Source of the DNA: Actinomycetes bacterium
GTDB taxonomy: Bacteria > Actinomycetota > Acidimicrobiia > Acidimicrobiales > Acidimicrobiaceae
Length of the DNA stretch: 33,316 nt
NCBI GenBank assembly: GCA_021786375.1
Contig: JAJYNL010000092.1
Coordinates: 1-33,316, forward strand
Direction: 5' to 3'
Below the pieces are notes generated by a model. It had not been told where the DNA came from. It worked only from the letters and a program-made list of their open reading frames with translations, and did not search any database. Numbering within the stretch: position 1 is the stretch's first letter; every line of letters begins with the position of its first letter. The position numbers were made by a program, and so were the translations under genes. This document shows positions 1 through 20,470 of the stretch, in pieces.

Positions 1-335
1 CGCGTGAACTCTGCCGCAACCGCCGCGTCAAATGGCTTGCAGGTGTAAACGTCCACACTGAAAAAGAGGCGCGGCGTGTCCCAGGCGTAGAAATGCGCGC
101 CGGAGGTCTCCCAGTGAACCCAGCCGGCCCAACCGTAGGTCTCGGAGAGGTGGGTCACCGGATCGGTTAGCACCTTCATGCCACAGACAGTGCCCAAATC
201 GCGCAAGTAGGCGACAATCTGTGCGTCGTTGATCGGTGCAGCGGGGATGCCTTCGATCACGAGCCGCTGGCGATAGATATCCGGAGCGAGGTCTACAACC
301 TCGCCCTTCACTGCATGGGCGGAGCCACTATTCAT
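1..335 (-). CDS. Divergent AdoMet decarboxylase (SpeD) family protein, C-terminal end missing
   Basis: The reading frame starts at ATG 335 and runs off the left edge after about 111 residues. After an N-terminal stretch with RQRLVIEG (residues 22-29), it has WETSGAHFYAW (75-85) and then FFSVDVYTC (91-99). This matches the layout of bacterial SpeD, where a Glu-Ser cleavage site precedes HTWPE and the VD-[VF]-TC strand with the active-site Cys. SpeD family enzymes cut themselves to make a pyruvoyl group and decarboxylate AdoMet for spermidine synthesis; some relatives act on ornithine or arginine. Here Ser78 keeps the usual distance of 7 to Trp85, but the Glu before it is Thr77, the following His is Gly79 and the second His is Tyr83. 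Processing and substrate are therefore open. A weak GGGA lies about 12 bases before the ATG. The family call rests on motif layout only, and no polyamine genes are near. Confidence 0.62.
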   Translation of the reverse strand, partial: MNSGSAHAVKGEVVDLAPDIYRQRLVIEGIPAAPINDAQIVAYLRDLGTVCGMKVLTDPVTHLSETYGWAGWVHWETSGAHFYAWDTPRLFFSVDVYTCKPFDAAVAAEFT

Positions 336-676: not shown

Positions 677-2131
677 CTACCAGCTGGTCGCTATGTACTT
701 GCTTTCAGTGAACTCGAGTAGGCCGTCATGTCCGCCCTCGCGGCCGAGGCCGCTTTGCTTCACCCCGCCGAACGGCGCAGCCGGATCCGAAACCAGGCCA
801 CGGTTGAGGCCGACCATCCCGGACTCGAGCGCCTCCGAGACGCGCATGCCGCGGCGCATATCGCCGGTGTAGACGTAGGAGACCAGGCCGAACACGGTGT
901 CATTGGCCATGGCGATCGCCTCGTCATCCGAGTCAAAGGCAACGATGGGAGCCACCGGGCCGAAGATCTCCTCCTTGAGGATGCCCGCGTCAGGCGGGAC
1001 ATCGGCGAGAACCGTGGGCTCGTAGAAGTAGCCGGCGCCGCCAATCTGGCGAGCTCCGAGTGAGACTTTGGAACCTGCGTCCAACGCACCCTGGATCAAC
1101 TCCTCGACCTTGATTCGGGCGTTCAGGTTGATGAGCGGGCCAACCTCGGTTCCCTCCGCCAGGCCGTGCCCTATGCGCAGGGCGCCCATTGCGGCCGAGA
1201 GGCGTCGCGTGAATTCGTCCGCCACCTTGCGCTGAACGTAGAAGCGATTGGCGGCGGTGCATGCCTCACCCGCGTTGCGCATCTTGGCGACCATGGCCCC
1301 CTTGATGGCTTCGTCCATGTCGGCGTCGTCGAAAACGAGGAAGGGCGCGTTCCCGCCCAGCTCCATCGAGGAGTTGACGATGGACTCCGCGGCCTTGTGC
1401 AGCAGGCTGCGGCCAACCTCGGTCGAGCCGGTGAAGGAAAGCTTGCGCACTCTCGGGTCAGCCAGCATCGCCGCAACCACATCGCCCGAGCGCCGGGAAG
1501 GGATCACGTTCACCACTCCGGCCGGCACTCCGGCCTCCTCCAGGATCGATGCCATGAGCAGCGCCGTCAGCGGGGTGTCCGAAGCGGGCTTCAGAATCAC
1601 GGTGCAACCCGCCGCCAAGGCGGGGCCAATCTTGCGGGTCGCCATGGCAGCCGGGAAATTCCAGGGCGTGACCAGTACCGACACACCAATCGGGCGCCTG
1701 AGCACCAGGATGTTATTCCCGCCGTTGGGCGCGGTGACGATTTCGCCACTCATGCGCACGGCCTCCTCGGAGTACCAGCGGAAGAACTCCGCCGCGTACG
1801 CCGTCTCCGCACGGGCGTCGGGAAGCGCCTTGCCGTTCTCGAGGACCATCAGCCTCGAGATCTCCTCGCCGCGATCGCGCATGATCTCGAAGGCGCGCCG
1901 CAATGCCTCGCCACGCTGGCGCGGAGCCGTGGCGGCCCATCCGGGAAGCGCGGCCCAGGCCGCATCCACCGCCGCCTTGGCGTCGGCCACGGTGGCGTTG
2001 GAGACCTCGGCGATCGTTCCACCGGTTGCCGGATCCACGACCTCGAACCTCCCGCCTTCGGCGCTCGGCGCAAAGCCGCCGCCAACATAAAGGTCCAGGC
2101 CCAAGTCCTTGGGCAGTTCGCTTGTAGTCAT
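677..2131 (-). CDS. NAD(P)-dependent aldehyde dehydrogenase, succinate-semialdehyde dehydrogenase type
   Basis: The 484-residue protein has the length and motifs of the aldehyde dehydrogenase superfamily. It shows PWNFP (156-160) with the oxyanion-hole Asn158, the SFTGST turn of the cofactor site (232-237), the general base Glu257 in ELGG and the catalytic Cys291 in NAGEACTAANR. The overall pattern is closest to the GabD/SSADH group, which oxidises succinate semialdehyde and related omega-oxo acids to the acid. The exact aldehyde cannot be read from sequence. ATG 2131 follows the TGA of the E1 beta gene with no gap (TGAATG), so translation is probably coupled. It is the last gene of the catabolic series and is followed by a hairpin. 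It probably acts on a semialdehyde formed by the upstream enzymes. Confidence 0.88.
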   Translation of the reverse strand: MTTSELPKDLGLDLYVGGGFAPSAEGGRFEVVDPATGGTIAEVSNATVADAKAAVDAAWAALPGWAATAPRQRGEALRRAFEIMRDRGEEISRLMVLENGKALPDARAETAYAAEFFRWYSEEAVRMSGEIVTAPNGGNNILVLRRPIGVSVLVTPWNFPAAMATRKIGPALAAGCTVILKPASDTPLTALLMASILEEAGVPAGVVNVIPSRRSGDVVAAMLADPRVRKLSFTGSTEVGRSLLHKAAESIVNSSMELGGNAPFLVFDDADMDEAIKGAMVAKMRNAGEACTAANRFYVQRKVADEFTRRLSAAMGALRIGHGLAEGTEVGPLINLNARIKVEELIQGALDAGSKVSLGARQIGGAGYFYEPTVLADVPPDAGILKEEIFGPVAPIVAFDSDDEAIAMANDTVFGLVSYVYTGDMRRGMRVSEALESGMVGLNRGLVSDPAAPFGGVKQSGLGREGGHDGLLEFTESKYIATSW

Positions 2132-19570: not shown

Positions 19571-20470
19571 TTGACTGATTCCACAACGAGCCGCGTGATC
19601 CTGGGCCTGAGCGAGGAGGTGCTCCCCGAGCTGTGCTCAGGGTATGCGCGCATGATCTACATCGACCCACCCTTCAACACCGGCAAGCGCCAGGCCCGCA
19701 AGTCGATCCGCACCGTGCCTGACGAGAACGGAGACCGCGTCGGCTTCAAAGGTCGGAGGTACTCGAGCGAAGTCGTCTCGCGTATGCACTACGCCGACTC
19801 CGTCGATGACTACGCGACCTTCATCGGACCCTTCCTGGCCGAGGCGCACCGCCTGCTCGACGAGAGCGGAACCCTCTATTTGCACCTCGACTACCGTGAG
19901 GTCCACTACGCCAAGGTCCTGTGCGACGGGATCTTCGGGCGCAAGAACTTCCTCAACGAAATCATCTGGGCCTACGACTATGGCGGCCGCCCCAAGCGCA
20001 GGTGGCCGGCCAAGCACGACAACATCCTGGTTTACGCCAAGGATCTCGACCGGTATCACTTCGACTCAGCGGAAGTGGAGCGAGAGCCTTACATGGCCCC
20101 GGGGCTGGTGACTGCAGAGAAGGCGGCGCTTGGCAAGCTTCCCACCGATGTCTGGTGGCACACCATCGTCTCCCCGACCGGCAGGGAAAAGACCGGCTAC
20201 CCCACCCAGAAGCCGCTTGGAATCCTCCGCCGGATGATTTCCGCCTCAACCCGGCCGGGCGACAGGGTACTCGACTTCTTTGCCGGCAGCGGAACGACCG
20301 GGGAAGCCGCATGGGTCCTGGGCAGGGACTTCACTCTGGTCGACGCCTCACTCCAGGCTTTCGAGGTGATGCGCTCGCGCCTGGATCAGACCGGCGCCGG
20401 ATTCGAGATACACGCGAGCGCGGCCAAGGGGTCCCCCTCGGATCACCCCGGAAACGCGATGGGCCGATAA
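19571..20470 (+). CDS. Solitary beta-class DNA methyltransferase (N6-adenine or N4-cytosine)
   Basis: The 299-residue protein has motif IV DPPFNTG (32-38) near the N-terminus and the SAM-binding motif I FFAGSGTTG (236-244) near the C-terminus. This is the beta-class order, with the target-recognition part in between (about 100-200). YPTQKP precedes motif I as in Mod and CcrM relatives. The DPPF form favours N6-adenine. TTG 19571 is supported by AGGAG 8 bases upstream. No restriction endonuclease, Res subunit or specificity subunit is adjacent, so it is a solitary methyltransferase that may mark DNA for regulation, replication or protection. Its last 28 bases overlap the end of the solute-binding gene on the other strand. 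The target site cannot be read from the sequence. Confidence 0.88.
   Translation: MTDSTTSRVILGLSEEVLPELCSGYARMIYIDPPFNTGKRQARKSIRTVPDENGDRVGFKGRRYSSEVVSRMHYADSVDDYATFIGPFLAEAHRLLDESGTLYLHLDYREVHYAKVLCDGIFGRKNFLNEIIWAYDYGGRPKRRWPAKHDNILVYAKDLDRYHFDSAEVEREPYMAPGLVTAEKAALGKLPTDVWWHTIVSPTGREKTGYPTQKPLGILRRMISASTRPGDRVLDFFAGSGTTGEAAWVLGRDFTLVDASLQAFEVMRSRLDQTGAGFEIHASAAKGSPSDHPGNAMGR

Follow-up and report, generated by a model that had tools for sequence, protein, structure and literature searches.

A SpeD-like gene at a contig edge in an Acidimicrobiaceae genome and its pairing, in relatives, with a LuxI/FeeM-type acyltransferase and a membrane sensor

The window analysed here is a 33,316-nucleotide stretch of DNA from an Actinomycetes bacterium of the family Acidimicrobiaceae (contig JAJYNL010000092.1; G000:C26:1-33316, where G000 is the window's own genome). 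At its very start, the minus strand carries a gene with the SpeD fold whose 3' end is truncated by the contig edge; its initial 111 codons form an open reading frame (ORF) with its ATG at 335-333 that stays open to the window start. The neighbourhood beyond that edge is known from the loci of relatives, where the SpeD-like gene stands with a LuxI/FeeM-type N-acyltransferase and a membrane sensor. As a genomic fact in these relatives the three-part module is solid: gene order, gene overlap, conservation, predicted folds and the divergence pattern are all established there. Our best reading, unproven and in our judgement just short of an even chance, is that the SpeD-like protein, the N-acyltransferase and a membrane GGDEF-EAL protein or seven-transmembrane (7TM) kinase together make and sense an acylated small molecule.

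Sequence and predicted fold place the window gene in the SpeD family

A scan of GTDB genomes yielded 39 related loci (L001 to L039), 35 of which were aligned with the window copy to give the 36 sequences referred to below as the SpeD-like family. The window fragment matches the Pfam family AdoMet_dc with 27.1 bits (cut-off 25), the full-length relative L002 reaches 38.7 bits, and all 36 aligned members match with E 0.01 or better. The AlphaFold2 model of L002 has a predicted local distance difference test (pLDDT) value of 92.2, and its best match (VIA) is the S-adenosylmethionine decarboxylase (AdoMetDC) of Thermotoga maritima (1vr7_B, Z 14.2, root-mean-square deviation (rmsd) 2.5 over 106 residues); Foldseek returned the same enzyme (1tmi_A, E 1.3e-8). 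Sequence searches gave matches to RNA-binding proteins (U2AF, TDP-43, hnRNP) at E 0.036 or worse, taken as chance, and did not find AdoMetDC, which the fold search alone retrieved. Together with the positions of the pyruvoyl Ser and catalytic Cys, the Pfam match and the predicted fold assign the window gene to the AdoMetDC (SpeD) family. The membership proposed from the sequence alone is thus upheld, the nearest solved structure remaining that of T. maritima. The NCBIfam SpeD equivalog TIGR03330 scores 12.2 and 15.4 bits, far below its cut-off of 75.65.

The fragment is 95% identical to L001 and 96% to L002, both complete at 125 residues; judged by them, the part missing from the window amounts to 14 residues. 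Glu-Ser-His is absent from full-length L001 and L002, these 14 residues included, which answers the earlier concern that a canonical motif might lie elsewhere in the full protein. The full length was taken from these relatives after an attempt to complete the gene from G000 met a single SpeD-like copy, at the contig edge. Between the window and L002 the nonsynonymous divergence (dN) is 0.024 and the synonymous divergence (dS) 0.62, indicating purifying selection.

The pyruvoyl serine and catalytic cysteine positions are retained

Compared with the class 1b AdoMetDC TM0655 of T. maritima, the family shares the predicted fold and the equivalents of Ser63, Trp70 and Cys83, but has Thr for Glu62, Gly for His64, Tyr for His68 and Ala for Ser55, an extra residue before the Cys strand, and an acyltransferase as partner. 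The residues named in the sequence-only reading (Thr before Ser78, Gly after it, Tyr for the later His, Cys kept) agree with the window translation. Across the family, Ser and Cys are each present in 35 of 36 members, both being lost in L039 alone, which also lacks an acyltransferase match. Every residue from Gly79 to Trp85 (G-A-H-F-Y-A-W) is identical in all 36, Trp85 lying between Tyr83 and Cys99, and the columns of His68 and Ser55 are uniformly Tyr and Ala. The residue preceding Ser is Thr in 32 members, Asn in two and Ala in two, so that canonical Glu-Ser-His and processing His68 are replaced by Thr/Asn/Ala-Ser-Gly and Tyr. When 24 SpeD-family proteins were aligned as a mixed set, only three columns proved invariant (Gly67, Ser77 and Cys97, first-row numbering), and two of them hold the Ser and Cys of the SpeD-like family. 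Ser63, His68 and Cys83 are required in T. maritima SpeD, according to PMC10407285.

The earlier description of the protein as lacking the processing motif is accurate as to the missing Glu-Ser-His, the Gly at +1 and the Tyr at +5, but is overstated given the retention of Ser and Cys. Likewise, Thr in place of Glu holds for the window but is less unusual than it had seemed. Glu-Thr-Ser is present in the genes that we ourselves assign as SpeDC-type (L053, L056, L078, L082, L086, L088 and L089), Thr being one of four residues diagnostic for SpeDC ornithine decarboxylases in PMC10407285, and the phage relatives all read His-Trp-Lys-Glu-Ser-Gly (14/14). Since Thr occurs in SpeDC-type and Glu-Ser-Gly in phage members, the genuine departures from the SpeD motif are, on these alignments, His to Gly at +1 and His to Tyr at +5. 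Like the pyruvoyl L-ornithine decarboxylase SpeDC, described in the same source, the family has Thr in front of the pyruvoyl Ser and retains Ser and Cys; it differs in the +5 Tyr in place of His and in forming a separate clade.

A tree of 56 proteins has one clade (100/99) that unites the SpeD-like family with sister forms and with those of cyanobacteria and Halioglobus, and another (100/99) formed by the seven SpeDC-type rows. The strict SpeD-like family is not one clade in this tree, for which the program warns of long branches meeting. No canonical SpeD was found in 25 carrier genomes by an AdoMet_dc search that was positive in 8 of 14 control genomes, this search being insensitive to the SpeD-like family itself, which it detects in 3 of the 25. 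In L053-L056, from one genus of the window's phylum, a SpeDC-type gene, a SpeD with Glu-Ser-His and a SpeE-like gene (by eye) stand in a row.

Relatives pair the SpeD-like gene with an acyltransferase and a membrane sensor

By title, 31 of the 39 loci are from Actinomycetota and 4 from Saccharibacteria; the 4 others, from Acidobacteria, Uhrbacteria, Planctomycetaceae and Micavibrio, may include binning errors. One contig (L033) ends inside the SpeD-like gene, leaving 38 testable loci; a LuxI/FeeM-type N-acyltransferase is present in 35 of them. In 32 loci it belongs to a single homologous cluster and lies downstream on the same strand, while L006 and L016 carry a more distant acyltransferase directly downstream and L012 one past the GGDEF-EAL gene. 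A profile of the acyltransferase recovers the same 35 loci, these three at E 1.3e-6 to 7.7e-4, and has no match in L024, L035 and L039. The two genes overlap by a TGATG stop/start in 17 of 33 measured loci; L037 is included in this count despite an alignment row that begins one codon late.

Two acyltransferase loci (L003, L007) are cut off before any receptor position. In 32 of the 33 that can be tested there is a membrane sensor, a GGDEF-EAL-type protein in 27 and a histidine kinase in five; these counts are based on clusters of similar ORFs, with Pfam run on six of the 32. A motif search, which missed the L006 kinase, detected GGDEF together with EAL in 24 of the 27 GGDEF-EAL-type proteins and a single motif in L027 and L036, L022 being a contig-cut fragment. 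Hydrophobic stretches precede the GGDEF at 333 in L002, and the L008 kinase matches HisKA_7TM. The set recurs in two further genomes: in G284 the sensor is a GGDEF-EAL protein, and in G656 a kinase, accompanied there by a response regulator (identified by eye). Among 25 genomes (23 carriers by locus, G000 and G284), the acyltransferase profile has exactly one match in 22, none in G000, and none at threshold in G415 and G416, whose acyltransferases are of the distant kind. That the rest of the module is present in the window's own genome we infer from these relatives. The 18 GGDEF/EAL matches in G000 (28-43% over the common GGDEF/EAL part) were rejected as the missing receptor.

The suggestion, made from the sequence alone, that the protein has another function gains from the constancy of this partner, from the separate clade and from the carriers' lack of a canonical SpeD in the search described above. 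A simpler version would make it a further SpeD-derived decarboxylase of ornithine, arginine or another amino acid, serving polyamine synthesis beside incidental neighbours. Such ornithine and arginine decarboxylases are widespread, as PMC10407285 reports, and sister, plasmid and phage forms exist without an acyltransferase, but a gene overlap and a partner kept in 35 of 38 loci are hard to call incidental, and we consider this explanation very improbable.

In L035, the gene that follows the SpeD-like gene was suspected to be nicotianamine-synthase-like, an idea that was dropped for want of any match in Pfam, NCBIfam or PDB sequences; an aminotransferase-class-I/II gene comes next.

The partner resembles LuxI- and FeeM-type synthases

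Of 30 acyltransferases, nine match the Pfam family Autoind_synth and nine match Acetyltransf_5 (E 0.1 or better). For Autoind_synth the best E among the 30 is 1.7e-4, and two members scored singly reach 13 and 20.2 bits against a cut-off of 24. The family profile retrieves one PDB sequence, LasI (E 0.0019). The acyltransferase model (pLDDT 91.1) matches FeeM best (2g0b_B, Z 16.0, rmsd 3.1 over 181 residues), with the LuxI types LasI and BjaI at Z 15.0 and 14.8. In a remote profile alignment, the column of LasI Glu101 is acidic in 30/30 (Asp 22, Glu 8) and that of Arg104 is Thr in 28 and Ser in two; both residues are among the LasI active-site residues in Table 1 of PMC9654057. Remote as the alignment is, these residues would be compatible with an acceptor unlike S-adenosylmethionine (SAM).

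The neighbour thus has in common with the LuxI acyl-homoserine lactone synthases LasI and BjaI the fold, the acid at the Glu101 column and the Arg of the G-x-x-R strand (30/30), but differs in the Thr/Ser at the Arg104 column and in its sensor, which where seen is a membrane GGDEF-EAL protein or kinase. With the N-acyl amino acid synthases (FeeM, PEP-CTERM-associated) it shares the top structural match and a weak match to TIGR03694, yet the three members scored fall far below the TIGR03694 cut-off, and the FeeM Pfam model matches 1 of 30 (E 0.049). In the Candidate Phyla Radiation (CPR), 18 LuxI homologues adjoin a sensory kinase and were proposed as candidate quorum-sensing systems (PMC7567580); the main text of that paper does not use the word "decarboxylase". 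Solitary luxI homologues in Actinomycetota were reported earlier as well (PMC13136126). In the open-licence literature searched, no description of a SpeD homologue paired with a LuxI-type enzyme was found.

The acyltransferase diverges faster than its SpeD-like partner

Between L001 and L002, the SpeD-like proteins are 92.8% identical, the acyltransferases 54.1% and the GGDEF-EAL proteins 69.8%. The blastn match of the two loci (84% at the DNA level) stops at the stop codon of the SpeD-like gene and resumes, at 70%, inside the GGDEF-EAL gene. In all eight pairs compared, dN is higher for the acyltransferase than for the SpeD-like gene. An aldehyde-dehydrogenase-like neighbour, syntenic in L001, L002 and L003 and 99.0, 97.9 and 93.0% identical there to the window copy, served as the yardstick of divergence. 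Signal specificity would be expected to leave this pattern, in which an enzyme is conserved and the synthase next to it changes fast; replacement by recombination would leave the same one.

This pattern bears on the alternative that both enzymes make a structural or defensive acyl-amine lipid or metabolite, with no signal involved and the c-di-GMP (cyclic di-GMP) protein or kinase exerting control only. Palmitoylputrescine, a known antibiotic from environmental DNA, is a precedent for such a product. Even so, the rapid divergence of the acyltransferase between near relatives is a better fit to a signal and its receptor, as is the presence of a membrane sensor at 32 of the 33 testable loci, and we regard the metabolite explanation as quite unlikely.

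The window's contig ends immediately short of the region that proves hypervariable among the relatives, and the contigs of L001 and L003 likewise end within the module; strain variation at the module may have broken these assemblies.

Each gene also occurs without the other

Among 396 genomes of the window's phylum, the SpeD-like profile matches eight, assigned by eye as three of this family (G000, G284, G186), one sister form and four SpeDC-type genes, the latter adjoining SpeD- and SpeE-like genes (by eye). The acyltransferase profile has nine matches in the same set: G284 strongly, G186 weakly, and seven genomes that lack a strict SpeD-like match. For the phylum of G415, 286 genomes were covered, in which the SpeD-like profile gives 17 matches (two of this family, three sister forms, 12 weaker) and the acyltransferase profile eight (G656, G629 and six weaker). 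LuxI-like genes of the neighbour type therefore occur also without a SpeD-like gene. One of these, in G629 (locus L124), is 39.5% identical to its counterpart in L093 (G656), the adjoining kinases being 52.4% identical; positions 5339-8807 of L124, with the L093 order minus the SpeD-like gene, offer a natural test case for the need for the SpeD-like protein. In L097 and L125, FeeM/LuxI-like genes found as weaker acyltransferase matches adjoin ThiF-family genes, beside a GGDEF-HD protein in L097 and a HisKA_7TM kinase in L125, possibly a sister module type with another accessory enzyme.

Relatives of the SpeD-like gene were also seen in 14 contigs of a viral collection (L110-L123); in four of the 14, a saccharopine-dehydrogenase-like gene (Pfam run on one) adjoins or shortly follows the relative. 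The plasmid relative from Acaryochloris (L057) has a GNAT next to it that was set aside, as this GNAT matches general acetyltransferase models and not the LuxI-like profile. In L091 (930-1295), a sister-form SpeD-like gene directly adjoins an ATP-synthase-subunit-a-like gene (by eye).

A possible acyl-amine signalling module

In the signalling reading that we favour, the SpeD-like gene would be the first gene of the module. Its proenzyme would cleave itself before Ser78, converting Ser78 to a pyruvoyl group, and would decarboxylate an amino-acid-like substrate to an amine. The co-translated acyltransferase would then attach an acyl chain to this amine head group, and the product would be exported and read by the membrane protein, with a change in c-di-GMP or phosphorylation as output. 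Cleavage, catalysis, substrate, product, secretion and sensing are all steps that we infer.

Several observations weigh against this reading. Self-cleavage is not assured, because the His68 column is Tyr and the Ser55 column Ala in every member; Ser55 of T. maritima AdoMetDC is a residue that we take to assist processing. Ordinary GNATs score up to Z 14.6 against the acyltransferase model, close to the LuxI types, and therefore the fold alone leaves the substrate unfixed. L024 and L035 retain Ser and Cys yet have no acyltransferase match, the profile search of the G000 assembly returned none, and the fetched flank of L021 holds neither receptor type. G629 has the response regulator, acyltransferase and kinase in the G656 order with no SpeD-like gene. 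Conversely, there is no acyltransferase match in 14 phage, 3 plasmid and 3 sister-form loci (L092 spanning just 5.2 kb); therefore the SpeD-like protein is of use by itself. It would, on this evidence, be an amine-supplying enzyme that the signal module recruited, one among several accessory enzymes.

The main rival is that the SpeD-like protein forms no pyruvoyl group and is a non-catalytic partner, a regulatory or structural subunit binding the acyltransferase or its substrate. Trypanosome prozyme and the N-terminal domain of spermine synthase are models for such a role, and the L002 model has structural matches to, among others, human spermine synthase (3c6k_B, Z 10.0) and 5tvm_F, an entry for T. 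brucei AdoMetDC/prozyme (Z 8.4, rmsd 11.4). The tight overlap with the acyltransferase gene and the complete loss of the His68 and Ser55 equivalents point the same way. The two residues of the chemistry, Ser and Cys, are nevertheless kept in 35 of 36 members, and they persist in the sister, plasmid and phage forms as well, where there is no acyltransferase to serve as partner. We therefore hold a non-catalytic role to be unlikely, though the strongest of the alternatives.

A bolder form of the signalling reading, which we find doubtful, is that the module represents a new class of acyl-amine signal in Actinomycetota and Saccharibacteria. It would combine a pyruvoyl decarboxylase, whose substrate is possibly SAM, a LuxI-fold acyltransferase without the usual Arg104, and membrane c-di-GMP enzymes or kinases as readers, and would perhaps be shared between Saccharibacteria and their actinobacterial hosts. 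If the signalling reading is true, bacteria whose chemical communication is little known would have an acyl-type signalling module, and two small genes, co-expressed, are predicted to yield one new compound. It would also add to SpeD a branch with altered processing residues and retained Ser and Cys, which tests the requirements of pyruvoyl formation.

Coordinates and further observations

Table 1. Positions in the window of the SpeD-like gene, its key codons and the upstream neighbour
Feature	Position	Strand	Basis
SpeD-like gene, 5' part (111 codons)	3..335	-	ORF; Pfam AdoMet_dc 27.1 bits; L001/L002 relatives complete, 125 residues
Cys99, putative catalytic Cys position (T. maritima Cys83)	39..41	-	Cys 35/36; invariant column
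Tyr83, position of processing His68	87..89	-	Tyr 36/36
Gly79 (GGC)	101-99	-	window reading
Ser78 (TCC), putative pyruvoyl-serine position (T. maritima Ser63)	102..104	-	Ser 35/36; column invariant in 24 SpeD-family proteins
Thr77 (ACC), position of Glu62	105..107	-	Thr 32, Asn 2, Ala 2 (n=36); Thr in SpeDC-type genes too
Glu76 (GAG)	110-108	-	window reading
Aldehyde-dehydrogenase-like gene, upstream of SpeD-like gene	677..2131	-	named by eye; outside module

Elsewhere in the window, a DNA-methyltransferase-like ORF at 19571-20470, with an Asp-Pro-Pro-Phe motif identified by eye, lies between glycosyltransferase-like and solute-binding-protein-like ORFs.
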